A program made the translations under genes and the position numbers. DNA of 26,274 bases from a virus. Under the pieces are notes generated by a model. The model did not search any database, was not told where the DNA came from, and worked only from the letters and a program-made list of their open reading frames with translations. The stretch covers positions 1 to 26,274 of IMG/VR virus record IMGVR_UViG_3300042691_000298. One strand, given 5' to 3'. Below, piece after piece: positions 9,261 through 25,148 of the stretch. Each line of letters starts with the position of its first letter. The first letter of the stretch is position 1.

Positions 9261-9523
9261 GTAAGATGTACATTCGGGTTCGGAAAGACGGCTTCATTTA
9301 CGACTACAACGAGATTCTGGCGAAGAATCCGGAGTGCGAAGTCGTGTCTGAGGAGGTTGCTTATCCAGAGCGATTTATGCCTACCGAAGCGCCGAAGCGG
9401 GTTGCAACGGCTCGCAAGAAGCGCGGCGTGGTGCTTGATCTTTCGACTGATGACATTCCAGAAGCCCCGCCTTATACTCCCCCGGAGTTGGCTGAGGAAG
9501 CCTCGCGAGGATTACCGACATGA
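9257..9523 (+). CDS. small hypothetical protein before adaptor genes
   Basis: An 88-residue protein in ATGA overlap at both ends. Unlike its four basic upstream neighbours it is near neutral to acidic at the C-terminus. The N-terminus (MYIRVRKDGFIYDYNEILAKNP) looks like a small beta-hairpin domain that many phages carry as a separate 'IRVRKDGFIYPYN' type protein; the last third is Pro/Glu-rich and probably disordered. No role is known. Confidence 0.72.
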   Translation: MSKMYIRVRKDGFIYDYNEILAKNPECEVVSEEVAYPERFMPTEAPKRVATARKKRGVVLDLSTDDIPEAPPYTPPELAEEASRGLPT

Positions 9524-10161
9524 CACCAAACGAAGTCATCACCGAAGCGCGGCGGTTGATTCAAGATACCAAAGCTCCGTTTCGGTACACCGATACGCTG
9601 ATGCTGGGGTTCGTCAATCAGACGCTCAAGCGCATGGTGCTGCTTCGCCCCGATCTGTTCACTACGGTTGGGGATATTACGTTAACTGCGAACACGGTTT
9701 TGCAGGACTGCCCTGCGGGGGCGGTACGCCTTGTTGAGATTTTCCGGGTGAAGAATGGTGGCGCGATTGTCGAAGTATCGCGCAAGACCCTTGACCAGAC
9801 ATACCCCGATTGGGTAAACGATCCGGCGGATCAGCCCGTGAACTTCATGCGGCATGTACGCAACCCCACTAAGTTTTTCGTATACCCACGTCCGATAGCG
9901 GGAGTGGTGCTGGTGGGGGAGTATGTTGCCGCGCTCCCCGTGTACAGCATCGACGCGACGATTGCATTACCGGAGGCATATTTTTCAACGCTGATTGATG
10001 GCGTCGTGTTTCTGGCCGAGTCTGTTGATGATGAACACGTTAACAGCGGGCGGGCGAAGCTGTATCAGGATTCCTTCATACAGTCTCTTGGCATCGGACT
10101 ACAGTCCCGCAAAATTACCGACACCGAAGAAGGTGGTCTTGATCCGCAGGAGGTGGTCTGA
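9520..10161 (+). CDS. head-tail adaptor-like protein, first copy
   Basis: A 213-residue protein overlapping the previous stop (ATGA). The N-terminal helices (NEVITEARRLIQDTKAPFRYTDTLMLGFVNQTLKRM) followed by a beta domain (VGDITLTANTVLQDCP, AVRLVEIFRVKN) and a helical C-terminal part match the layout of podovirus adaptor proteins (DUF6682-type as I recall), which form a ring under the portal to attach the nozzle. Position immediately before a second adaptor-like gene supports this. A neck protein of another type is the main alternative. Confidence 0.72.
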   Translation: MTPNEVITEARRLIQDTKAPFRYTDTLMLGFVNQTLKRMVLLRPDLFTTVGDITLTANTVLQDCPAGAVRLVEIFRVKNGGAIVEVSRKTLDQTYPDWVNDPADQPVNFMRHVRNPTKFFVYPRPIAGVVLVGEYVAALPVYSIDATIALPEAYFSTLIDGVVFLAESVDDEHVNSGRAKLYQDSFIQSLGIGLQSRKITDTEEGGLDPQEVV

Positions 10162-10835
10162 TGTTTACCAGAGATTTCAGTACGCTTGCTGTCAGGTTAC
10201 AGCCTACGGTTCCGGGGTGTCCTCGGCAGACCATCGTGCAGTACATACGTGACGCCGCGATCAAGACGTGCGAGCGTACTTTGGCTTGGCGGTATCAGCA
10301 GCCGAAATTTAATCTGACCCCCGGCACCTATGTCTACGCATACAGCAAGCCTGCGGATACGCAGGTTCATGCGGTGTTCGGGGCTATGCTGAATGATGCC
10401 CCGCTTGAGGTGCTGACGTTAGATCGTGCGCTGCAACTCTACCCAGCATGGGGCGATAAGTACACCACCTCTGGAGATATTGCTACGTATGGGAGCCAAC
10501 CGCGTTCGCTGACTCAGATATCACCGCATCAGTTTGCTGTATTGCCGTTGCCGGATGCGCAGAGAACGTACACCATGCGGATGTTTTACGCGCTCAAGCC
10601 GTCTCGTTCGGCAACCGGCATGGATGAGGTGCTGTTTGATGAGCTTGAGGATGCCATCATGCACGGGGCTTTGCAGCAGTTGCTGGTGCTACCCAACGCC
10701 AACTGGTCGGATCGGGAACTGGCCGCATATCATGCTAAGCAGTACGCCTTCCAACTTGCCGAACGCCGTGCGCGGGCCAACCTAGGCAATGCTCGGGGTA
10801 CGATGCGGGCACAGGCGCAGCCTTTTGGAGCTTGA
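10161..10835 (+). CDS. head-tail adaptor-like protein, second copy
   Basis: A 224-residue protein starting in the TGATG overlap with the first adaptor-like gene. It has the same outline: N-terminal helices (RQTIVQYIRDAAIKTCERTLAW), a beta core (FNLTPGTYVYAYSKPAD, HQFAVLPLPDAQRTYTMRMFYALKP), and a long C-terminal helix rich in Ala, Arg and Leu (ELAAYHAKQYAFQLAERRARANLG) that suits a ring-forming tail adaptor. It could be the tail tube component (T7 gp11-like) while the first is the adaptor proper, or a diverged duplicate. The role is inferred from architecture and gene order. Confidence 0.68.
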   Translation: MFTRDFSTLAVRLQPTVPGCPRQTIVQYIRDAAIKTCERTLAWRYQQPKFNLTPGTYVYAYSKPADTQVHAVFGAMLNDAPLEVLTLDRALQLYPAWGDKYTTSGDIATYGSQPRSLTQISPHQFAVLPLPDAQRTYTMRMFYALKPSRSATGMDEVLFDELEDAIMHGALQQLLVLPNANWSDRELAAYHAKQYAFQLAERRARANLGNARGTMRAQAQPFGA

Positions 10836-10836
10836 T

Positions 10837-11166
10837 ATGGCAACCATCAAACTTGTTCGCAACGACACCGCGCCGCAGTTACGATTCACGATTACGGATT
10901 CGTTGACGGGCGATCCAATCGACTTGACAGGCGCGACAGTGACATTGCATTTTCGGGCTGCGGACTCCACGACTTTACTGTTTAGCCGTGCTGCGGTTGT
11001 TTTGTCTCCTCCGACCAATGGAATTGCGGCGCTTGCTTGGGCACCCGGCGACCTTAATCTCGCCGCCGGGGAGTACGTCGGTGAAGTCGAGACGGTGCTG
11101 TCTACAGGTCAGCGCGAGACAATCTTTGACGTATTGCAATTTGAACTCCGGGAGGACTTTGCGTGA
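10837..11166 (+). CDS. BppU N-terminal-like beta-sandwich protein
   Basis: A 109-residue protein from ATG 10837, preceded by TTGGAG; an in-frame ATG at 10789 lies within the previous gene and is rejected. The pattern IKLVRNDTAPQLRFTITDSLTGDPIDLTGATVTLHFRA, followed by LAAGEYVGEVETVLSTGQRETI and a final FELREDF, corresponds to the small Ig-like fold at the N-terminus of the lactococcal phage baseplate protein BppU, present as a stand-alone protein in many phages. Such domains anchor fibres to the tail. It is followed by the repeat protein through a GTGA overlap. Confidence 0.7.
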   Translation: MATIKLVRNDTAPQLRFTITDSLTGDPIDLTGATVTLHFRAADSTTLLFSRAAVVLSPPTNGIAALAWAPGDLNLAAGEYVGEVETVLSTGQRETIFDVLQFELREDFA

Positions 11167-12578
11167 GGCTACGGGTCGCCGTTAATGCGCTGGTGTTGCG
11201 TCTGGCAGCACCTGCTAAGCGGCTGCGCACTGCCATCCGTGGTGTGGGACTTCGGCTTGCCGTGCCTGCTAAGCGGCTACAGACTGCGATTGGGCAGTTT
11301 ATGGCAGTCCTCTACCCCACAGATACTGCTGCCACCTCAGAGAACACGGCTTTTTCTGTGGGGAAAGGGCTATCCGATACATCGACCGTCACCCCGTTGA
11401 TCGAGTTTGAGTTCCGCAAAGGTATTGACGAGGGGGCGGGGATTGACGCTGGAGCTTTTTATTTCGAGGAAGACTATGTTGAGGGAGCGCCGATTGAGCA
11501 GACTTATACCCTTGGTTTACAGTTAGTCAGGGATATTGGGAAACCTTTGGCTGACTCTACGACGGTATTGAGTCTTACCGCGATTCTCTCGTCGTACGGG
11601 CGTTCAGATTCCTACGTGGCAAGTGATGCCGATCTTCTGTTCTTTAATAAAGGCGTCACGGAGATACCTGTTCTCGGACAGCATATTGTTGACCTTGCGA
11701 CAACCAAGGCGCTATCGGACGGTGGGGGATTTGGGGGCGACTCTCAATATTTTGCCGAGGATTACGTAACGGGAGCGCCGAACTCACAAACTTACACTAT
11801 CGGGGTTCAGATAAGTAGAGCGGTGGGTAAGGGGGTCGCGGATTCTATCGCTGCTGCCAGCCTTGCAGTCATGTCTATGCAGTTTGGGCGTGTATTGTCT
11901 GACGCTTATGCCAGCGGAGACTCGCTTTTCAGGACGTTTAATAAGGTGCTTGGGCACGGCGTTGGGGCTACTGACGATCTCAATGGTGCGCTCCCGCTGG
12001 ATGATCAAACAATTGCATTTTTTAAGTCTCTCGGCCACATCGTTAGCACGGGGGATGCCCCCGCCAAGGTGTTTCAGCGGAGCTTGTTTGAAACCCCTCG
12101 TGTTCTGGACACCCCCGCAAAGCAGTCTGGGAAGTCGCTCTTAGAGGTATCGGTGGCTACGGAGATGCGGGCGCAGGCGGTTGGAAAGGTTCTATCTGAC
12201 CTGCCGCGCACTACTGATATTTCTGCTAAGGCTCTGCAACGTAGCCTGTCCGATGGGGCGGCTACCGCCGATTCAGGTGTGCGGGCTTTCGGGAGCGTGC
12301 GGTCGGATTCATTCTCTGTGTCTGATAGTATGGTCTATCAGTTCGCGGTTGCCAAAGCAGCGGCGGATATCGCCGTCGCACGCGATGCGCGGGCATTGAC
12401 AAACACCAAGATACTGGGGCACACTGCTAGGGCAGCGGAGGTCAGTACGCGCTTGGCAGGCAAAGTCTCATCAGATTCCGCAGGGGCAGATAGTTCTGGG
12501 GCGCTCTTGGCGCAGGGCTATACTGTAGATATGACGTACTTCGCGGAAGACTACGTAGGCGCATCTCGAACTTTTTGA
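11163..12578 (+). CDS. 18-residue-repeat virion protein
   Basis: A 471-residue protein starting at GTG 11163 (GTGA overlap). It opens with two near copies of a VLRLAAPAKRLRTAI-type helix. Residues 100 and 196 begin two copies of YF(E/A)EDYV.GAP...QTYT(L/I)G, 96 residues apart, and residue 459 begins a third (YFAEDYVGASRTF) that ends the protein. From residue 239 to about 455 there are about ten tandem repeats with an 18-residue period and a loose consensus xxxGKVLSDxxxxxDSxx, for example QAVGKVLSDLPRTTDISA and KALQRSLSDGAATADSGV. I know this repeat style and the YFAEDYVG ending from uncultured aquatic phages; function is unknown. A fibre or elongated virion filament is the best guess. Confidence 0.75.
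   Translation: MRLRVAVNALVLRLAAPAKRLRTAIRGVGLRLAVPAKRLQTAIGQFMAVLYPTDTAATSENTAFSVGKGLSDTSTVTPLIEFEFRKGIDEGAGIDAGAFYFEEDYVEGAPIEQTYTLGLQLVRDIGKPLADSTTVLSLTAILSSYGRSDSYVASDADLLFFNKGVTEIPVLGQHIVDLATTKALSDGGGFGGDSQYFAEDYVTGAPNSQTYTIGVQISRAVGKGVADSIAAASLAVMSMQFGRVLSDAYASGDSLFRTFNKVLGHGVGATDDLNGALPLDDQTIAFFKSLGHIVSTGDAPAKVFQRSLFETPRVLDTPAKQSGKSLLEVSVATEMRAQAVGKVLSDLPRTTDISAKALQRSLSDGAATADSGVRAFGSVRSDSFSVSDSMVYQFAVAKAAADIAVARDARALTNTKILGHTARAAEVSTRLAGKVSSDSAGADSSGALLAQGYTVDMTYFAEDYVGASRTF
11877..12527 (+). repeat. 18-residue (54-base) degenerate tandem repeats
   Basis: Protein-level tandem repeats with an 18-residue period start at MQFGRVLSDAYASGDSLF (11877) and run to about 12527 inside the repeat protein. 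Units retain K/R at position 5, S-D at positions 8-9 and D near position 15. They are strongly diverged in DNA, with one or more units altered by a two-residue insertion near the end. Confidence 0.65.
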
Positions 12579-12589
12579 AAGGGTAAAAA

Positions 12590-13051
12590 ATGAACTTCCA
12601 TGATCTCCCCCAGAGTCGGGGCAATGTTGATATCGTAGTTCGCTCCGCAAATGGCGACATCAAGGACATCCGCAAAATCCATAACCTTGTCGTAAACACT
12701 GGGTTGGCTTTTGTCATCAGCCGTATGGTGGGCACCTCCAAAGCGGTGATGAGCCACATGGGGATTGGTGCGGGGACGACTGCCGCTGCCGCTGGCGACA
12801 CCGCGCTTGGTAGTCCTCTCGGTTCCCGCGTGGCGCTGACCAGCACGACGATCAGCGGCGCGAATAACGAGAAAGTTGTCTACGTCGCAACTTTCGGCGC
12901 GGGAGTCGGCACTGGTGCAGTAACCGAAGCCGGTGTGTTCAACGCTTTGACCTCCGGTGATATGTTGTGCCGCACGGTATTCTCAGTCGTCAACAAGGCT
13001 GCTGATGACACAATGCAGATCACTTGGACGATCACGATGTCGGCAACCTAA
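12590..13051 (+). CDS. conserved fibre-associated structural protein
   Basis: A 153-residue protein, with GAAAGGG a few bases before ATG 12590. The sequence (DIKDIRKIHNLVVNTG, AVMSHMGIGAGTTAA, VTEAGVFNALTSGDMLCRTVFSVVNK, DTMQITWTITM) resembles a family of beta-rich structural proteins that I have seen directly next to phage tail fibre genes. It lies between the repeat protein and the long fibre. It probably belongs to the fibre or its attachment site. The exact role is not established. Confidence 0.75.
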   Translation: MNFHDLPQSRGNVDIVVRSANGDIKDIRKIHNLVVNTGLAFVISRMVGTSKAVMSHMGIGAGTTAAAAGDTALGSPLGSRVALTSTTISGANNEKVVYVATFGAGVGTGAVTEAGVFNALTSGDMLCRTVFSVVNKAADDTMQITWTITMSAT

Positions 13052-13063
13052 TTGGAGTGAGCT

Positions 13064-14887
13064 ATGGCGGCGATTACCACCAGAGCGGGGAAAGGTTCTC
13101 CGCTAACCAACGCTGAGTTGGACGCAAACTTCACCAATATCAACGCTGGCATCACAACAACAGCGGCAGTAACCGGCGGCACGATCACTGGGGTGACGAT
13201 CAATAACTCCGGTATTGGAAGCACGACACCGTCGACTGGCGCGTTCACCTCATTAACCGCAACGAGTGCTTCCGGCGTTGTTTCGCGTACTGCGGCGACG
13301 GAGGATGGTGTTGCGTTGATCGGTCGCGCTGGTGGGACATCATCGTATCGCGTGGCGCTTACCCCTACGACGTTGGCAGCAAGTAGGACGTTGACATTGC
13401 CAGATGTTGACGGTACTGTCCTAACGACAGGAGCGGCAGTTACAGTCCCGCAGGGTGGAACGGGGTTGACTTCTGGTACGTCGGGCGGCGTCCCGTATTT
13501 TTCTAGCGCCACGGCAATTACAAGCTCTGCTGCTCTTGCTGCGAATGCTCTAGTTGTTGGCGGCGGCGCTGGGGCGGCTCCGGCTACGGTTACGACTGGC
13601 ACGGGGGTTGTCACGGCGCTTGGGGTTAATACAGGCACTGCTGGCGCATTCGTTGTCAACGGCGGCGATTTGGGAACCCCTTCCAGCGGAACCCTGACCA
13701 ACGCAACTGGGCTACCGCTTTCTACAGGGGTAACTGGTACTCTACCTGTCGCCAACGGAGGGACTGGTCAAACTACGTTGGGCGGTGGCTATGTACTGCG
13801 CGGGAATGCTGGACTAGGAATTCTAGCAGATACCGAGTTAATTTATCAAAATCCCGGCGCACCAAATAATACAAAACAGCTTGCTATTCAGCCACCAAAT
13901 TCTGCTGGTGTCTTAGCAAGTGCTGGGCTGGCACTTACTGCCAATAATAATGGAAATGCTTATATAACATTTAGCCCCAACGGAACTGGCGTTAGTACTC
14001 AAAACACTACGGCAACTCATAGTTTTCAAAACAACGGCGCAACAACATTTTCGTATTCTGCTAACGGAATTAATCTAGCAAGCGGTAAGACCATAACCTT
14101 TAGTTACCCTTCAGGGTCGCCGACAAATACTTATATTATCCCATCGTCCCGAACCTTAGCTGGCGTAACTTCCAACGCCATAACAGCGCAATCTAGTGGC
14201 GGGGCGACGAATATTGTTATTGAGGCCGTGTCAGCGGGCGCCGCCGGACTTTGGTTGACGCCAAACAGCACTGGTAGCGGCACCGGTAATGTAGGCACCA
14301 CTAATAACCTTGATTTACGGTTATATAGAAACGGCACAGTATATCAGACCTTTGATACAAACGGTACTGTATTTGCTTCTGGCAGAAACATTGGCTTGGG
14401 TGGCACTTCTCCATCTACTTCTGGTGCCGGGATATCTTTTCCGGCGACTCAATCAGCATCTACCGATGCAAATACCCTCGATGATTATGAGAAGGGCACT
14501 TGGACGCCGACCTACGCGGGCGGTACTACCGCTGGAACATCCACCTACGCTACTTATGAACGTGCGGGCGGGTATACAAAAATCGGGAATGTGGTTACGG
14601 TTAGCGGCTATGTTGGAGTTACTGCGGCAACGGGGACAGGAGATATAACTATCACCGGGTTTCCTTTTTTGACTTCGGGCGCCGGTTTTCCGCCCGAGGC
14701 TTATGGCGCAGTCCGCGTATATGGTAACACCAATTTCCCAGCAGATGTAAAGAATTGTACTTTAAGGCTGGCGTCGAATACTTCCGTTGCAAGAATCGCC
14801 GTTTCGGCGGGTGCAACCACAGCGTCTACTTATTTACAGATGTCAAACGTCATAACCATCGCTTTCACTATAACCTATCGCACATGA
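13064..14887 (+). CDS. tail fibre / receptor-binding protein
   Basis: A 607-residue protein with TTGGAG before ATG 13064. The shaft contains typical trimeric fibre repeats: TGGTITGVTINNSGIGSTTPSTG near the start, VPQGGTGLTSGTSGGVPYF, and VANGGTGQTTLGGG. Near residue 470 is GISFPATQSASTDANTLDDYEKGTWTPTY, after which a C-terminal beta domain (GYTKIGNVVTVSGYVGV, GDITITGFPF) follows; this end is widespread in phage fibres and is the likely host-binding tip. The middle and end (from about 13830) are noticeably richer in A and T than the first part, which suggests module exchange. Confidence 0.85.
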   Translation: MAAITTRAGKGSPLTNAELDANFTNINAGITTTAAVTGGTITGVTINNSGIGSTTPSTGAFTSLTATSASGVVSRTAATEDGVALIGRAGGTSSYRVALTPTTLAASRTLTLPDVDGTVLTTGAAVTVPQGGTGLTSGTSGGVPYFSSATAITSSAALAANALVVGGGAGAAPATVTTGTGVVTALGVNTGTAGAFVVNGGDLGTPSSGTLTNATGLPLSTGVTGTLPVANGGTGQTTLGGGYVLRGNAGLGILADTELIYQNPGAPNNTKQLAIQPPNSAGVLASAGLALTANNNGNAYITFSPNGTGVSTQNTTATHSFQNNGATTFSYSANGINLASGKTITFSYPSGSPTNTYIIPSSRTLAGVTSNAITAQSSGGATNIVIEAVSAGAAGLWLTPNSTGSGTGNVGTTNNLDLRLYRNGTVYQTFDTNGTVFASGRNIGLGGTSPSTSGAGISFPATQSASTDANTLDDYEKGTWTPTYAGGTTAGTSTYATYERAGGYTKIGNVVTVSGYVGVTAATGTGDITITGFPFLTSGAGFPPEAYGAVRVYGNTNFPADVKNCTLRLASNTSVARIAVSAGATTASTYLQMSNVITIAFTITYRT

Positions 14888-14901: not shown

Positions 14902-15285
14902 ATGCCAATTACCAAAGAAACTGCAATTGATCAAATTACCGTAACAGAGAACGGTATTGTTTTGTACCGCGAGGCCACGAGGATTGTTGAGGATGGGGTT
15001 ATGTTGACCCAGACTTATCACCGCTCCTCTTTGACGCCGGGTCAGGACTTGACTGGGGTGCCCGCCAATGTCGTTGCGATTTGCAATGTAGCATGGACGC
15101 CTGAGGTTATCGCTGCTTATCAAGCGCAGATGGCGGCGGCAGCGGCGGCAGCGGCGGCAGCGGCGGCAGCGGCGGCAGCAGCGGCAGCGGCAGCAGAAGC
15201 AGCGGCAGCAGAAGCAGCGGCACCGGCCCCGGCCCCGGCCCCGGCCCCGGCCCCGGCCCCGGCCCCGGCCCCCACCGAGGGGTGA
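14902..15285 (+). CDS. small fibre-associated protein with poly-Ala and (Pro-Ala)8 tail
   Basis: A 127-residue protein. ATG 14902 is chosen because ATAAGGAG (14888-14895) lies just upstream; earlier in-frame starts fall inside the fibre gene. The first 77 residues are a compact domain (IDQITVTENGIVLYREATRIVED, MLTQTYHRSSLTPGQDL, PANVVAICNVAWTPEVIAAYQAQM) common in phages just after fibre genes. Residues 78-98 are 21 consecutive Ala, followed by E-AAAA-E-AAA and (Pro-Ala)8-PTEG. This tail is coded by tandem repeats and is probably a helical then extended linker. Function of the domain is unknown; no partner can be read from the sequence. Confidence 0.75.
   Translation: MPITKETAIDQITVTENGIVLYREATRIVEDGVMLTQTYHRSSLTPGQDLTGVPANVVAICNVAWTPEVIAAYQAQMAAAAAAAAAAAAAAAAAAAAAEAAAAEAAAPAPAPAPAPAPAPAPAPTEG
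15133..15272 (+). repeat. GCN alanine tract plus (GGCCCC)8 hexanucleotide array
   Basis: The 9-base unit GCGGCGGCA is repeated five times from 15133, then irregular Ala codons follow, then GGCCCC is repeated eight times without error at 15225-15272. On the minus strand this is (GGGGCC)8, which can form G-quadruplexes. All units are multiples of three and stay in frame. Confidence 0.95.
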
Positions 15286-17039: not shown

Positions 17040-19901
17040 ATGGCGGGCGTAAAGATCATCGGGTTCCTCGGCACTGCGCCGAAGATTTCGCCGGAGTTGC
17101 TGCCTAACGCGGCGGGGCAGATTGCGACCAACTGCAAGTTGTACTCCGGTGACCTGATCCCCTACCCGCAGCCTACGGTTGTCGCGAATACGGGGCGTAC
17201 CGGAACGATAAAGACGCTGTTTGCTCTACGCGATCCTATCACCGGGGCGAAGAAGTGGCTATCGTGGCTCACTGATGTAGATATTGCAGTTGCCTCGAAG
17301 ACTGACTTGGAGGAGCAGCGGTTCTACTACACTGGCGATGGGGTGCCGAAGGTCAGTAACTACCAGCGAGCGGTTAATGGCTACCCCGCCCCATATCCTG
17401 TAGGCAGTTACGATCTTGGACTTCCCGTTCCGCCCGATAGCGCTAAGCTCAGTGTAACGACCACTCCATTCGTCTCGAAGTCTGTGTATTCATATACTCG
17501 TGATGCCAATAATATCGTCACGATTCAGGTGCTTGGAGGGCATAATCTGAGGTCTGGGAACCTCATAACGATCTCTGGTTTTGCCTACATTGACGGTACG
17601 TATACCCAAGGGGGTACGTCAAAAAGCGGCACCATGTTGCAGTCATCGGCGCTTTTGACGGCCGAGATTTCAATAACAGCGCATGGCCTTCAGACTGGGG
17701 CAGTGGCTCGACTCGCGTTCAGTGGCTATGGGACTCTAAACGGCGCATACTCGGTAACCGTAATTAACCAAGACCTATTTGCCATCACAATGCCGACTGC
17801 GGCGGCGCGGTCAGGTAGCGTGACGCTGGATAACTACGGTACTTCGGCAGTCACAGTCACAATCAATAACCACGGACTTAGCAACGGAGCGCAGGTCACG
17901 CTCGACGTTACAAGCGGCACCTTGGCAGACGGTGCCTATGTTGTATCGAACGTGACTACAAATACTTTTCAGATCAACGCCTCGATTGCGCAATCAACCG
18001 GGGGCAACCTTCGGTGGGATATCCGTAGCCTCAACGTAACAAACGCCGAATGCACCGTTACCGGGGCAAATACCTTCACTTATTTCAGCCCCGGCCCGCA
18101 GATTGCTGAGACGTTCCCTTCGGTCGGGGCTGTAACGCTGGGTGGTATCGCGCAGGCGCGTAACTATGTCTTTACGTGGTACACGCCTTGGGAGGAGGAG
18201 TCTATCGCTTCTATCCCATCGGATACGCAGTACATCAAAGAGGGCACGATCACGGCTGTCACCAATGTACCGGCGGTGACGCCAAGCCTATCTACTTTTA
18301 TACGCGGCGTCCGTCTGTACCGAACGCTTGCTTCTGCCTCGGGCACCGAGTACTATCTTCTCAAGACATTGTGGTTCCCCACACTACTGTCTGGTACTGC
18401 GCAGCGCGTATCGAATGTCTCGCGGGTTACTACGGTCGACCCGCACAACCTTGATATCGATGATCGTTTTAAGATTTCTACCGCAGGGACGTTCAGTATT
18501 GCTGGGGGCATCGTTTCTGCGGTAATCAGTGATTATGTGTTTGAGTACGCGCAGACGGGTGCTGATGTAGCGCCCACCAACCTGCTCTCTGGGGTTCTTT
18601 ACCATGACGTGTCGGAAGACCCGCCTACGACGCCCCCTCGATATTGGGGGGATGCGTTTTACGCTACGTATACGCAGTCGGGTACACCTACGGTTACTGT
18701 TACGGCCCCCGGACACAGTCAAGCTGTAGGCTCTCGGATTTACCTGTCGATCACATCTGGCGCTCTGGCGTCCGGGGTCTATACAGTCAGTAGCATAACG
18801 ACGAATACATTCAATGTCGTTGCGACAACATCCGCTACAACCTCTGGGAATATTTTTGTCTCGGGGTTTGTTTTTGTAGATGATTTCGACTCCCGTGACC
18901 TGTTCGATATCCTTGCCTCTGATGATTACGACGCGCCGCCTGAAGACCTCCAAGGGTTGACTGCCATCCAGAACAATATCTTGTGTGGATTCGTTGGCAA
19001 CACGCTGTACTTCTCTGAGCCGGGGCTACCGCACGCTTGGCCTGCCAAGTACGCCGTGACGCTGGAACACAACATCGTTGGCATTGCCGCAATCAGCGGT
19101 TCTGCGCTTGTGGTCACCGACTCGTACCCCTACATCGTGTCGGGGTCTGATCCAGCAAATGGGATGTCGACGGCACGTATTGATGCCAACTTCCCGTGCC
19201 TGAATAAGAACAGCATTGTTACGATGGGCTACGGGATTGTGTACGCCACGCACGATGGGTTGGCAGTCTACTCCCCATCCAGTGGTGCCGCGATTATCAC
19301 CAAGCTGCTATACAACAACGATACGTGGCAGTCCGCGATTGATCCGTCGACGGTAATTGCCGAGTACTATGGCGACAACTATTTTGCGTCGCACTCTACG
19401 GGGGCGTTTATCTTTGAGCAGGATGCGAAGGTCGGCGGATTTTTTGTGAACGCTGATTACTCGTTTACTGCCTCTTGGTATGACGCGGTAGATGGAATCG
19501 TGTACTACGTTAGCGGGGTCAACGGCGATGTCTACGAGTGGGACGACCTCAGTCAGCCACCTACGACCCAAGAGTGGAAGTCTAAGGTCATCATCACCAA
19601 GGATATGATTAACCTCGGTGCGGCAAGAGTCGTCGCGGATTACGCCACAACCTCCGATGATTGGGACGCAGAAACAAGTCAGTGGGACGCAGCGTTCAGT
19701 AATTGGAACTTGCCCGATCAGATCACATTCCGCCTTTGGGTAGACAAAGAGTTGATTTTCTTTACAACCATTAACGATAGTGAAATTTTCAGGTTGCCGA
19801 CCGGGTATCGGACAGATACATTTGAGGTTGGCGTAGAGGGTAATGTCCGGGTGCGGGCTATCCATGTGGCAGAGACTCCGCTTGGGTTGCGGGAGGTGTG
19901 A
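17040..19901 (+). CDS. nozzle-like large tail protein with inserted repeat domains
   Basis: A 953-residue protein with TAAGGA before ATG 17040. The first ~130 residues (IIGFLGTAPKISPELLPNAAGQIATNCKL, WLSWLTDVDIAVA, EEQRFYYTGDGVPKV) and the last ~330 (NTLYFSEPGLPHAWPAKY, SALVVTDSYPYIVSGSDP, GIVYATHDGLAVYSP, VVADYATTSDDWDAETSQWD) have the repeated beta-strand look of podovirus tail nozzle proteins (T7 gp12-type tail tubular protein B), which form the tube tip as beta-propeller rings. Between them are at least four ~45-residue beta repeats with an HGL..G / SG.L..G.Y.V / TNTF core (residues 207-255, 270-325, 549-605 and a weaker one near 460-505). The nozzle role is inferred from size, order and motifs. 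Confidence 0.75.
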   Translation: MAGVKIIGFLGTAPKISPELLPNAAGQIATNCKLYSGDLIPYPQPTVVANTGRTGTIKTLFALRDPITGAKKWLSWLTDVDIAVASKTDLEEQRFYYTGDGVPKVSNYQRAVNGYPAPYPVGSYDLGLPVPPDSAKLSVTTTPFVSKSVYSYTRDANNIVTIQVLGGHNLRSGNLITISGFAYIDGTYTQGGTSKSGTMLQSSALLTAEISITAHGLQTGAVARLAFSGYGTLNGAYSVTVINQDLFAITMPTAAARSGSVTLDNYGTSAVTVTINNHGLSNGAQVTLDVTSGTLADGAYVVSNVTTNTFQINASIAQSTGGNLRWDIRSLNVTNAECTVTGANTFTYFSPGPQIAETFPSVGAVTLGGIAQARNYVFTWYTPWEEESIASIPSDTQYIKEGTITAVTNVPAVTPSLSTFIRGVRLYRTLASASGTEYYLLKTLWFPTLLSGTAQRVSNVSRVTTVDPHNLDIDDRFKISTAGTFSIAGGIVSAVISDYVFEYAQTGADVAPTNLLSGVLYHDVSEDPPTTPPRYWGDAFYATYTQSGTPTVTVTAPGHSQAVGSRIYLSITSGALASGVYTVSSITTNTFNVVATTSATTSGNIFVSGFVFVDDFDSRDLFDILASDDYDAPPEDLQGLTAIQNNILCGFVGNTLYFSEPGLPHAWPAKYAVTLEHNIVGIAAISGSALVVTDSYPYIVSGSDPANGMSTARIDANFPCLNKNSIVTMGYGIVYATHDGLAVYSPSSGAAIITKLLYNNDTWQSAIDPSTVIAEYYGDNYFASHSTGAFIFEQDAKVGGFFVNADYSFTASWYDAVDGIVYYVSGVNGDVYEWDDLSQPPTTQEWKSKVIITKDMINLGAARVVADYATTSDDWDAETSQWDAAFSNWNLPDQITFRLWVDKELIFFTTINDSEIFRLPTGYRTDTFEVGVEGNVRVRAIHVAETPLGLREV

Positions 19902-21492: not shown

Positions 21493-22905
21493 ATGAGTAG
21501 CGCAGTTAAAGCAGTTGTGAGCGTAGTGGTGGCAGTTGCGATCCCGTTTGTGGCTCCTGCGATTGCCTCGTCTATCGGGTTGTCTACGGCGATTGGCACC
21601 GCCGTCGGCTCTGCTACAGCAGGTAGTGTGCTTGGGGGCGCACTCGTTGGTGCGGGGATAGGAGCAGTCAATGCCAGTCTCACTGGGGGTAATGTCGGTC
21701 GAGGGGCGTTGATGGGCGGTATCGGGGGAGGCATCGGAGGGTATACATCCGCGCCTTCTAGCGCTCCGACGCCGCCTCCTACCCCCACCCCCACTGGCGG
21801 TGCGCCTGTGTATGATGTATCCGCAACAGGGCAACTCGTACCGGCTCCGGGGTATGGTTCGCCGCCACTGACCGGGGCTGCTCCTCCTGTTGCGCCCCCG
21901 TCTGCACCGCTGATGGCCCCGGTAGCCAGTCCGGGGGTAATGGCCCCGACGACCACGCCGTTCTTCCCCGGCGAAGGCGTTCTATCTGGGGTGCCCGAGT
22001 TTGATCTCGCTGCTGCTCGGGCGGGATTAGACTTCGGCCCGCAAACTGCGGCGCAACTTAGTACTGGTTTTGAGCAGCAGATGGCTACTGCGGGTATCTC
22101 CCCGACTGCTGCGGCTCCGACTGCTGCGGCTCCGACTGCTGCGGCTCCGACTGCTGCGGCTCCGACTGCCGCGACTTCGCCTGCTGGTGCGATGGGGCCG
22201 CAGACTGCTGCGCAGCTAAGCACTGGCTTTCAGCAGCAGATGACTGCTGCTGGTGTCGCTTCAAAGCCCGCGACGTTTATGGACGCGCTCAGCAGAGTCC
22301 CCGGCGAGATCGCTGCGAAGTTCACAGACCCTAAGGCGTTGGCCGACATGACACTTCGTGCCGCTGGTATGCTGGCTGGATCGGCTGTTGCAGGTTCTGG
22401 ATTGTCTGCGGATGAGCAGCAGCTTCTGGATGCGCAAGTGCAGGAGTTGCGCGATCTTCAGCAAACTAACGCCACGTTGTTTGCGCAACGACTGGAACAG
22501 GCGCAAGCTCTTGTCGGCGAGTCCAAGTATTTCGATCCCGAGTACTTCGGTCTGCAACGCGCTCGCCGTGCGCAGCTTGCTGGGGCGAAAGCCAAACGTG
22601 CGGGGCTGCGTGGGCTGACAGGTGCAGCGCGGGAAGCCGAAAGCCGCCGGTTCGATTTGGCGACTTCTCGCGACGTGGGTACCGCGTTTGATCAGGGGTA
22701 CCTCACGGGTGTAGGCGGGCGTTTGCAGACTATGCAGGCTGGCCTTAACATGATGCCTACCAGCTATCCGACTAGCTCCAGTGCGTATTCAAACCTGCGT
22801 AGCGCGTATAGTGACGCTGAAGCGCGTAGGCAACGCGAGGTTGGTGGTGTTCAGCGGCTGTTTGGTTCGCTGCTGGAAACTCCGCAAGCATCTTCAAGGG
22901 GTTGA
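21493..22905 (+). CDS. probable internal virion/ejection protein, small member
   Basis: A 470-residue protein with ATAAGGAG (21479-21486) upstream. Residues 3-56 are a long hydrophobic, Ala/Val/Gly-rich segment (VVSVVVAVAIPFVAPAIASS), membrane-active in appearance, followed by a Gly-rich run (GALMGGIGGGIGGY) and a Pro-rich linker. Residues 182-197 and 235-250 are two copies of GPQTAAQLSTGF(E/Q)QQM separated by five PTAAA-type repeats. The C-terminal part is helical and charged (LRDLQQTNATLFAQRLEQAQ, RARRAQLAGAKAKRA). Layout and place before two larger partners fit a DNA-ejection protein of a podovirus; no exact family is recognised. Confidence 0.72.
   Translation: MSSAVKAVVSVVVAVAIPFVAPAIASSIGLSTAIGTAVGSATAGSVLGGALVGAGIGAVNASLTGGNVGRGALMGGIGGGIGGYTSAPSSAPTPPPTPTPTGGAPVYDVSATGQLVPAPGYGSPPLTGAAPPVAPPSAPLMAPVASPGVMAPTTTPFFPGEGVLSGVPEFDLAAARAGLDFGPQTAAQLSTGFEQQMATAGISPTAAAPTAAAPTAAAPTAAAPTAATSPAGAMGPQTAAQLSTGFQQQMTAAGVASKPATFMDALSRVPGEIAAKFTDPKALADMTLRAAGMLAGSAVAGSGLSADEQQLLDAQVQELRDLQQTNATLFAQRLEQAQALVGESKYFDPEYFGLQRARRAQLAGAKAKRAGLRGLTGAAREAESRRFDLATSRDVGTAFDQGYLTGVGGRLQTMQAGLNMMPTSYPTSSSAYSNLRSAYSDAEARRQREVGGVQRLFGSLLETPQASSRG
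22036..22242 (+). repeat. duplicated segment with 15-base minisatellite inside
   Basis: The duplicated protein block (22036-22083 and 22195-22242) keeps its residues while the DNA differs at many synonymous positions, so the duplication is old. Between the copies, the unit CCGACTGCTGCGGCT is repeated four times exactly and once with changes (22102-22176), encoding PTAAA units. Confidence 0.9.
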
Positions 22906-22907
22906 TC

Positions 22908-25148
22908 ATGCGCCTAGGGCAAGTACTCAGCGATACCGGCTACGGTATGGAGGTCGCGCAGACAATCGCGGCCCGTGCCCGCCAAGAGCGACAGGATCAG
23001 CTTGCCATTGAGGAGCAGAACCGTCTGGCCGATCTCAAGGCGCAGATGGCTCGTTCGCAATATGGGTCGCTCCAGCCGCAGGCTGCTCCTGACTTTAATG
23101 CGTTGGCTACGGGAGGCGCGCAACCTACGCTGCCACAGGCTCAGGCCTACCCGGTTGACGTGATTGCGGCTCCTACAGCAGCGCCCTCGGGTGGTATCCG
23201 GCGTATGACCGCTGAGGAAGTTGGCAGACTCCTTCAAGACCCCTATGCTATGGGCAAGCCTGCGGCTGCTCCTGCGGCTGCTCCTGCGGCTGCCCCTCCT
23301 GCTGTCGAGCAGTATCAGTTAGGGGCAATGACTGTTTCGCCTGCTCCGGTTGTCTCAGCGCCGACGGCTGCACGGTTAACTCAAAACGCTTTGGAAATGA
23401 TCCGGATGCGCGAAATGCGCGTCAAAGATGTGCAAGCTGGGTTGGATCGACTGCTGGCGGGTAATGCTCCGGCCCGCATGATTGAGAACCAGAAACAACT
23501 CCTTGCGCGGGAGCAGCAACTTCTGGAAACAAGCCGTCGGGGTGCGGAGCGTGTCGAGGAAGGACGGCAGCGTGGGGAGCAACTTACCGCGCAGCAGGCA
23601 GCAGCACAGCGCGAGGCCAACGCGCAACGTGCTGGAGAGCAAGGCATTGCCTCATGGCAACTGAACGCCAAAGGCCAGCCGATCCGTGGACTGGTAAACA
23701 ACAACCCCGGCAACATCCGCCCCAGTGCCCAGTTCCAGTGGGATGGACAAGTCGGAGTCGACAAAGGCGAGAAGGAGCGGGCAGGGTTCGTCCAGTTTGC
23801 TACTCCTGAGGCGGGTATCCGCGCTATGACCATAAACTTGCTGAGCTACGAACAGCAGGGAATTGACACGGTAAAGGGTGTCATTGATCGCTGGGCACCT
23901 CCGTCGGATCAGCCCGGTAAGAGCAACAGCAACTACATCCGGGCTGTTTCGGATGCGCTCGGGGTTAAGCCGACTGACAAGATCAATCTCGCAGACCCGG
24001 TGACGATGCAGAAGCTGGTGCCTGCGCTCATCCAGTTTGAGAACGGCAAGCAGCCTTATTCCGCAGCCGTGTTGGCAACAGGCATCACAGCGGGGCTGAC
24101 TAAGCAACGTCTGGGGACTACGCTCACCGCAGGGGCCGCTGCTCCTGCCGCCGCTGCTCCTGCCGCCGCTGCTCCTGCCGCCGCTGCTCCTGCCGCTGGT
24201 ATCACCATTCCGGGTATCTCGTCTGCCCAAGCTGCGACTCCCACTGCTGCTCCTGCGCAGCAGGTTGCTCCTGCACGGGTGGATGCAGATTTCTATCTCG
24301 CCAATCCGCAGGCTATCCCCTACGAGCAGCAGCAACTGAATCGGATGCTCCAGCAGCAGATTGGGCTGGCTCAACAGCAAGCCGCGCTTCTGACTCGCCA
24401 GCGCAATGAAGCCGCACAGATGGCGCAGATGTACATGCGCAGTGGCACGGCTCAAGGTATCGAAGCGGCTACCCGGTTGCAGGGTGCCATCAACCAGTAC
24501 GATGGTAGTCTTCTCCAAGTGCAACAACAAGTCGCCGAAGCGCGGCAGAAGGTTGAGCAGGGGCGTACCTATCTTGAGGGGATGCAGGGGCTGCAAGAGT
24601 TCGCGCTCGCCAATGATCCTCGCCGCCTTGCCTCGGTGTGGTCGCTCTATGCTGGCGTACCCATCGGTATCCAGCCGCGCTCAGATGGTACGTTCAACAT
24701 CATGGTCAACGGCAAGAAGACCAAAGAAGGCGTCTCTGCCACGGAGTTGACCAACAGCGCCCGTCTGGCATTTGACCAGACCTACCGTCAGCAGCAGGCT
24801 ACGGCGGGTGCCGAATACAACAAGAAGATGTTTGAAGCCCGTCTGGATATCCAGAAGACTCAGGCTACGCAACTGGCGCAGATGATCCGCGAGATTGCAG
24901 TTGAGCGCGTCAAAGGCAACAATGCACAGGCACTGGAATGGGCCAAGTCTAACTACGGCTGGGACATCAAGCCTACTGGCGCTGGCGACGGCACCGTTAT
25001 CATCAGGGCACCCGGCTCGCCGCCATATATGTTCAACCCGACGGGCAAGACTGTGGAAATCGACGGTGTTAAGGTACAGTCGAATGCGGCGTATCCTATC
25101 GCTGGGCTACCATCTTTCGGTGGGCAAGCCGCAACTCCGACGAGGTAA
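22908..25148 (+). CDS. ejection protein with virion peptidoglycan-hydrolase-like domain
   Basis: A 746-residue protein. ATG 22908 has AAGGGG (22896-22901) six bases upstream; TTG 22902 in the same frame is less likely. Segments: a helical N-terminal ~55 residues, a (PAAA)3 linker at 118-129, coiled coil (about 155-245, RAQ/EQ-rich), a domain at about 247-390, (AAAPA)4 at 410-429, and a long Gln-rich helix region. The domain has NNNPGNIRP at 264-272, FVQFATPEAGIRAM, NYIRAVSDALGV and QFENGKQPYS, a pattern seen in phage virion proteins thought to cut peptidoglycan (often annotated as P5-like or transglycosylase-like structural proteins). It probably opens the cell wall during DNA entry, like T7 gp16's lytic domain. 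Confidence 0.8.
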   Translation: MRLGQVLSDTGYGMEVAQTIAARARQERQDQLAIEEQNRLADLKAQMARSQYGSLQPQAAPDFNALATGGAQPTLPQAQAYPVDVIAAPTAAPSGGIRRMTAEEVGRLLQDPYAMGKPAAAPAAAPAAAPPAVEQYQLGAMTVSPAPVVSAPTAARLTQNALEMIRMREMRVKDVQAGLDRLLAGNAPARMIENQKQLLAREQQLLETSRRGAERVEEGRQRGEQLTAQQAAAQREANAQRAGEQGIASWQLNAKGQPIRGLVNNNPGNIRPSAQFQWDGQVGVDKGEKERAGFVQFATPEAGIRAMTINLLSYEQQGIDTVKGVIDRWAPPSDQPGKSNSNYIRAVSDALGVKPTDKINLADPVTMQKLVPALIQFENGKQPYSAAVLATGITAGLTKQRLGTTLTAGAAAPAAAAPAAAAPAAAAPAAGITIPGISSAQAATPTAAPAQQVAPARVDADFYLANPQAIPYEQQQLNRMLQQQIGLAQQQAALLTRQRNEAAQMAQMYMRSGTAQGIEAATRLQGAINQYDGSLLQVQQQVAEARQKVEQGRTYLEGMQGLQEFALANDPRRLASVWSLYAGVPIGIQPRSDGTFNIMVNGKKTKEGVSATELTNSARLAFDQTYRQQQATAGAEYNKKMFEARLDIQKTQATQLAQMIREIAVERVKGNNAQALEWAKSNYGWDIKPTGAGDGTVIIRAPGSPPYMFNPTGKTVEIDGVKVQSNAAYPIAGLPSFGGQAATPTR
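23259..23294 (+). repeat. 12-base PAAA-coding tandem repeat
   Basis: CCTGCGGCTGCT is repeated twice exactly and a third time with one change (CCTGCGGCTGCC). It codes the (PAAA)3 linker in the N-terminal part of the ejection protein and is in frame. Confidence 0.9.
24135..24194 (+). repeat. 15-base AAAPA-coding tandem repeat, four perfect units
   Basis: GCCGCTGCTCCTGCC is repeated four times with no mismatch. It codes an (AAAPA)4 linker just after the hydrolase-like domain. Perfect identity implies recent expansion or active slippage. Confidence 0.95.

Follow-up and report, generated by a model that had tools for sequence, protein, structure and literature searches.

The window (the whole stretch of DNA analyzed here, 26,274 nt) comprises positions 1 to 26,274 of the IMG/VR virus record IMGVR_UViG_3300042691_000298. 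On its plus strand, an SU10-type adaptor gene (9520..10161; PF24175, E 3.6e-22), a gene for a virion structural protein (10161..10835; PHROG match to phrog_437), and a phrog_1084 gene (10789..11166) precede a 471-aa open reading frame (ORF) with a GTG start (11163..12578), referred to here as the platform protein. It is followed by the gene for a 153-aa adaptor (12590..13051) and by that for a 607-aa putative tail fiber (13064..14887). The adaptor matches phrog_5417, a family listed as of unknown function in PHROGs (E 6.3e-27; residues 21-150 against positions 23-156 of a profile of 156). The first-pass annotation had placed the repeat-bearing platform protein in the virion, and its neighbors SU10_adaptor, phrog_437, and phrog_5417 bear this out.

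The platform protein itself has no match among PHROG families, none in Pfam above cut-off, and none among PDB sequences below E 0.35. The putative fiber is likewise without a PHROG or Pfam match. The phrog_1084 gene shows a weak resemblance to BppU_N (15.9 bits, below the cut-off of 23.1). Elsewhere in the window, a 953-aa ORF at 17040-19901 has a weak match, under cut-off, to an endosialidase beta-barrel domain (phage), and short GC-rich tandem repeats (period 6 to 27 bases) lie at 15133-15272, 22102-22186, and 24135-24196.

Repeats of the platform protein

We find that the platform protein is built on an 18-residue period. In self-comparison against 500 shuffles, each represented by its best lag, lag 18 reached z 8.2 over the whole protein and was matched by 0/500 shuffles. 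Within residues 239-455, lags 18 (z 6.7) and 36 (z 4.4) were each matched by none of the 500, and the same was true of lag 96 within residues 60-239 (z 10.1). In-register K/R/S anchors at residues 243, 261, 288, 306, 324, 342, 360, 378, 398, 416, and 434 are spaced by 18, save one spacing of 27 and one of 20. Thus, the roughly ten units originally proposed are confirmed as about eleven (residues 239-445; 11877..12497). Two longer copies of 96 residues, at residues 98-193 (11454..11741; with YFEEDYVEGAP) and 194-289 (11742..12029; with YFAEDYVTGAP), share 31 of 96 residues. These had been described as preceding the short array. The 96-residue lag is real, but the short units begin inside the second copy, and the two arrays thus overlap rather than forming distinct blocks.

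The repeats have diverged strongly at the DNA level. The first 61 residues of the 96-residue copies have 27 amino acids and 91/183 nucleotides in common, and 17 of these 27 identical residues are written with different codons. Mean identity among 14 listed 18-residue units is 23% for amino acids and 38% for nucleotides, and Tandem Repeats Finder listed nothing within the platform gene (11163-12578). Of 159 distinct relatives, the platform proteins of all viral loci, 132 reach p<=0.01 at some lag, and in 115 the strongest such lag is 18. This supports the earlier suggestion that selection acts on the retained spacing. The 14 T4-like proteins in that set (L022 at 740 aa, the others >900 aa) consist by length mostly of another domain, and lag 18 is best in 4 of them.

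A conserved insert, TDDxxGxxxxxDDQxxxFxK (residues 258-297; 11934..12053), interrupts the 18-residue register in most of 32 aligned relatives, among which D271 and K288 are invariant. It is the sole part past the N-terminus with predicted structure, a low-confidence beta hairpin (pLDDT ~60), and could bind a metal ion. Within the first ~53 residues (11163-11321) are degenerate repeats (RLRVAV.., LRLAVPAKRL), and a helix is predicted with low confidence at residues 18-53.

A profile of 1,316 distinct repeat units, with the K/R and the two acidic positions set by the anchor, is rich in large hydrophobics at -4, -2, +2, and +8 (0.58-0.79) and poorer in them at odd positions (0.13-0.32). This alternation suggests beta strands, and the repeats may form a stalk of strands within an oligomer. 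The first-pass annotation had instead envisaged a beta-solenoid or helical hairpin fiber. Left-handed beta-helices usually have 18 residues per turn, and the period of 18 together with a weak lag-6 signal across relatives (mean z 2.2) would fit such a helix or another single-chain beta-solenoid. However, an AlphaFold2 monomer built with 32 sequences showed no regular repeat fold (mean pLDDT 39.4, pTM 0.19), which leaves the single-chain solenoid and the helical hairpin unsupported, and strand-like alternation does not single out a solenoid. We consider a single-chain solenoid improbable.

The conserved C-terminus and the gene that follows it

The platform protein ends in TYFAEDYVGASRTF, as had been stated. 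Its last ~26 residues (residues 446-471; 12498..12575) follow a strongly conserved consensus, ..DSGxLxxQxYxDxTYFAEDYVGxSRxF. A search of IMG/VR with the DNA pattern of YFAEDYVG found it in at least 120 stretches. In 120 of the 120 listed, the distance from the motif start to the ORF end is 13 or 14 residues, or 19 in a single case. A whole-protein search added seven further loci. Across 162 distinct C-termini, Y, F, D, V, and G are kept in 152 to 161, and four aromatic positions are nearly invariant (Y at two of them, in 158 and 152; F in 158; Y/F in 161). Third codon positions over the motif vary freely among 134 sequences. This indicates selection on the protein, and we rejected an overlapping element acting at the DNA or RNA level.

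This ending had been read as a third, short copy of the repeat motif. Internal YFxEDYV look-alikes do occur, in 37/162 distinct relatives, but the ending is not a mere repeat copy: it is the best-conserved segment in a large family and marks the junction to the fiber-adaptor gene. One relative (L040:4400-5164) has an almost complete tandem duplication of the terminal, docking-like peptide, with copies at residues ~201 and ~242 and a third, internal YFLEDYV beside them. Compared with PDB chains, the motif gave one weak match only (3ds8, E 0.87). No paper on this motif was found in the open-licence literature searched.

The gene after the motif gene is a homologue of the window's adaptor (12590-13051) in 124 of 129 oriented loci. 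The other five end 13-127 bases past the motif gene; thus, no sufficiently long locus lacks the adaptor. Two loci, L124 and L129, are outside this set because no terminal motif was found in them by pattern. Homologues of the upstream phrog_1084 gene are present in 107/129 loci. In 101/129, a start resembling that of the putative fiber gene at 13064 (its first 70 residues) recurs 3' of the adaptor, nearly always ~450-575 bases past the motif-gene stop. The annotated gene order of phage JWX is tape measure, gp22, gp23, and gp24 (tail fiber protein); its gp22, annotated as a virion structural protein, carries the motif, and gp23, annotated as hypothetical, is the adaptor by profile.

The pairing also holds when loci are found by the adaptor alone. 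A search of IMG/VR with an adaptor profile (A1, 41 sequences) returned at least 600 stretches, and the relatives used were the best 80 of 590, with 57-86% identity to the adaptor of the window. We then trained a motif model on the motif-found loci (93 distinct C-termini) and applied it to a further 60 loci, none of which shared its final 60 residues with the training set. It matched at E<0.01, at the extreme C-terminus of the protein encoded upstream of the adaptor, in 53/60, or in 49/56 when the window, JWX, SE2, and Simon, which were not adaptor-found, are set aside. Other ORFs of the 60 held-out loci (3,620 ORFs in all) gave no match. The misses were L174, L182, L186, L188, L201, L207, and L209. 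By eye, the motif is recognizable in L207 and in the four L174-like endings (QDYVDGDFGSDYVGQVTYFN), and hardly so in L201 and L209. At L055, the true upstream ORF, read as 78 aa, fell below the 80-aa limit, and the wrong ORF was taken.

We also considered whether each internal motif copy is matched by an extra adaptor gene. At E<1e-3, none of the loci examined has a second adaptor, and this idea was rejected. The whole record of phage BUCT-ZZ01 holds a second, weaker adaptor (E 5.8e-11). The internal YFxEDYV copies have no second adaptor to pair with, so the core may also serve a further function.

Platforms and adaptors with and without the peptide

As judged from sequence, the peptide is found on unlike platforms, whose N-terminal parts differ. 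One group comprises SU10-like loci, the window's short-tailed type, identified by a homologue of at least one of genes 9520, 10161, and 10789 of the window; of these loci, 173/178 have the motif. A T4-like group of 18 loci, assembled by similarity to the baseplate-wedge type PF23786, has it by model in 11. The other seven include L077, with YFAEDYVG and a longer tail; the rest are variants or doubtful (L201, L217). Three of these platforms match PF23786 Baseplate_wedge above cut-off (L107, L174, and L201) and L029 falls just under it, while the window's platform protein has no match. The siphophage family phrog_384 matches SE2 and Simon, to which JWX is similar, and the motif is present in 3/3.

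The peptide accompanies one part of the adaptor family, not all of it. Fifty contigs from bacterial genomes carry adaptor homologues with 33-61% identity to the query, and the model detects the motif upstream of the adaptor in only 4/50: Polynucleobacter (L218), Xenophilus (L219), Janthinobacterium (L220), and a gammaproteobacterial MAG (L221). Peptide variants are visible by eye in L217 and L222, and no other ORF of the bacterial contigs (5,326 examined) matched the model. In 19 of the 50, a J-like platform has a different C-terminus. The adaptor of BUCT-ZZ01 sits behind a gp5 hub gene, and a profile search found no motif at E<=10 anywhere in the record of BUCT-ZZ01 or of EBPR siphovirus 1. 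These mostly motif-less contigs and BUCT-ZZ01 tie the peptide to a part of the family. Among annotated phage records, the adaptor matches 4 of 50,697 (tblastn, E<=1e-3).

On a tree of 70 representatives of the 249 adaptors, the motif label clusters: it needs 12 changes, compared with a mean of 22.4 in shuffles, of which 0/500 were as low. However, 39/67 inner branches are open and three rows are very long-branched, so the order of exchanges is not readable from the tree.

Other C-termini occur beside adaptor homologues. In three Nitrospina-type loci (L225, L233, and L235), the protein before the homologue ends in a GWG-x-x-WG-x-x-x-GWGG-like pattern with three tryptophans, and in a fourth (L241) the same pattern is made with tyrosines (YG). 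These evenly spaced WG/YG motifs, three in each protein, are reminiscent of the SU10 dock loop and its three tryptophans. In seven further loci (L224, L227, L228, L230, L231, L236, and L238), from Desulfobulbaceae and other genomes, the homologue follows a small paired-cysteine ORF that is not tail-gene-like. In Anaerospora hongkongensis (L262), a J-like platform and the adaptor are fused in frame in one 1486-aa ORF, whose platform part shares 64% identity with the L243 platform along almost the full length and whose adaptor part is 65% identical. This fusion is an argument for a partnership between platform and adaptor, though the J-like group is without the peptide.

A proposed docking peptide for a fiber adaptor

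Computation thus shows a repeat array, a conserved C-terminus, and a tight pairing with one adaptor gene across differing platforms. We propose that the repeat protein is a tail platform arm, in which the 18-residue repeats would form an extended, beta-rich stalk. The last ~26 residues would be a docking peptide, or plug, for the small adaptor from the next gene, and the adaptor, as the socket, would carry the tail fiber encoded by the gene after it. On balance, we think that this arrangement is probably correct. The peptide would bind the adaptor physically, and the adaptor itself may be an oligomer, probably a trimer.

To model the adaptor, we folded the L029 homologue as the last part of a chain that starts with the final 36 platform residues and continues through 24 residues of translated intergenic sequence; the chain holds one adaptor copy. 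The adaptor is mostly confident (82 residues at >=90; residues 91-110 weaker, at 59-66), and its best fold matches are the HFTV1 hub (Z 10.3), A511 gp105 (Z 9.3 over 108 residues), and the phi812 arm segment (Z 9.2 over 115 residues). Ralstonia phage GP4 fiber I (8jou; Z 6.7) and T4 baseplate chains (~6) are weaker matches, and Z <8 may reflect a common arrangement only, with unrelated rows at about Z 4. Foldseek alone gave a single match below E 0.001, 9h4p. This HFTV1 baseplate hub domain (residues 380-510) also ranks first when the adaptor's sequence profile is searched (E 5.5e-5; 0.012 for the best single stretch). In this archaeal virus (PMC12494034), the counterpart is a domain inside a 954-aa hub protein, whereas the window has a separate small adaptor gene. 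A511 gp105 (6hhk) and the phi812 arm segment (9fko) resemble the adaptor in modeled fold, but at 15-16% identity they, like T4 gp8, are not among the sequence-profile matches. PF23140 Gp80, the family of GP4 fiber I, is a weak profile match of the adaptor at 17.5 bits (cut-off 27), and PF12571 Phage_tail_fib scores 14.9 bits (cut-off 23), both below. We know of no partner peptide of this kind for A511 gp105 or the phi812 arm segment, and a literature search for a description of the phi812 arm found none on the subject among the papers listed. According to PMC11406892, A511 gp105 attaches receptor-binding proteins. A comparable role is proposed for the window's adaptor from gene order only, a fiber-like gene being next in 101/129 loci.

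A precedent for the peptide is the dock of SU10, with which the window phage shares its SU10-type adaptor gene. As PMC9509320 describes it, Trp839, Trp847, and Trp857 of one dock loop of the nozzle protein are arranged with quasi-threefold symmetry and face the trimeric short tail fiber. In both systems, one tail-platform chain would offer aromatics to the fiber side. The SU10 dock is a beta-propeller loop that binds the fiber itself, whereas the window's peptide is the extreme C-terminus after a repeat array and has a separate adaptor gene. Conserved aromatics are present in the peptide (QxY, YF, and DY), and by analogy these near-invariant residues may occupy pseudo-equivalent sites on the adaptor.

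The docking proposal draws on the next-gene pairing, the held-out result (49/56), the motif on unlike platforms, protein-level selection, the A511- and phi812-like adaptor model, the L262 fusion, tree clustering, and the SU10 precedent. It is weakened by the bacterial contigs and BUCT-ZZ01, by the internal YFxEDYV copies, by an adaptor-found set limited to the best 80 of 590 (>=57% identical), by the open branches of the tree, and by evidence that is genetic throughout. It is also weakened by the L029 model, in which the peptide is mostly below pLDDT 50 and is not docked; with one adaptor copy in the chain, this is weak evidence either way but gives no support.

Several of these points would also suit a YFxEDYV that is a local cap or turn closing runs of 18-residue repeats, with the adaptor next door through conserved gene order only. 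The internal copies, for which no locus has extra adaptors, and the undocked L029 peptide agree with such a cap, as does the YAIDYFxEDYT at about residue 655 of the T4-like group. Yet what co-occurs with the adaptor is the whole ~26-residue terminal form, beyond the core, and it does so on platforms that otherwise share little, including T4-like loci without most of the window's neighbors; we regard a mere cap as unlikely. Still less probable, in our estimation, is a C-terminus whose target is the host or a different component of the virion and which is simply co-inherited with the fiber genes. Fiber-cassette genes are often exchanged together, but host-binding ends usually diversify, whereas Y, F, D, V, and G are kept here in nearly all distinct C-termini.

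Docking thus remains our preferred reading, and the presence of peptide and adaptor in very different environmental phages suggests a shared plug-and-socket for tail fibers. More tentatively, this connection might be portable: one asymmetric peptide would use three pseudo-equivalent aromatics to read a trimeric adaptor, and short-tailed, contractile-tailed, and long flexible-tailed phages could swap whole fiber cassettes by recombining in the 18-residue repeats before the peptide. Host range depends on fibers, and fiber exchange among unrelated phages is poorly understood. A peptide tag at the attachment point, present in hundreds of uncultured phages, would make fiber and adaptor genes findable in metagenomes and would offer a short, testable interface.
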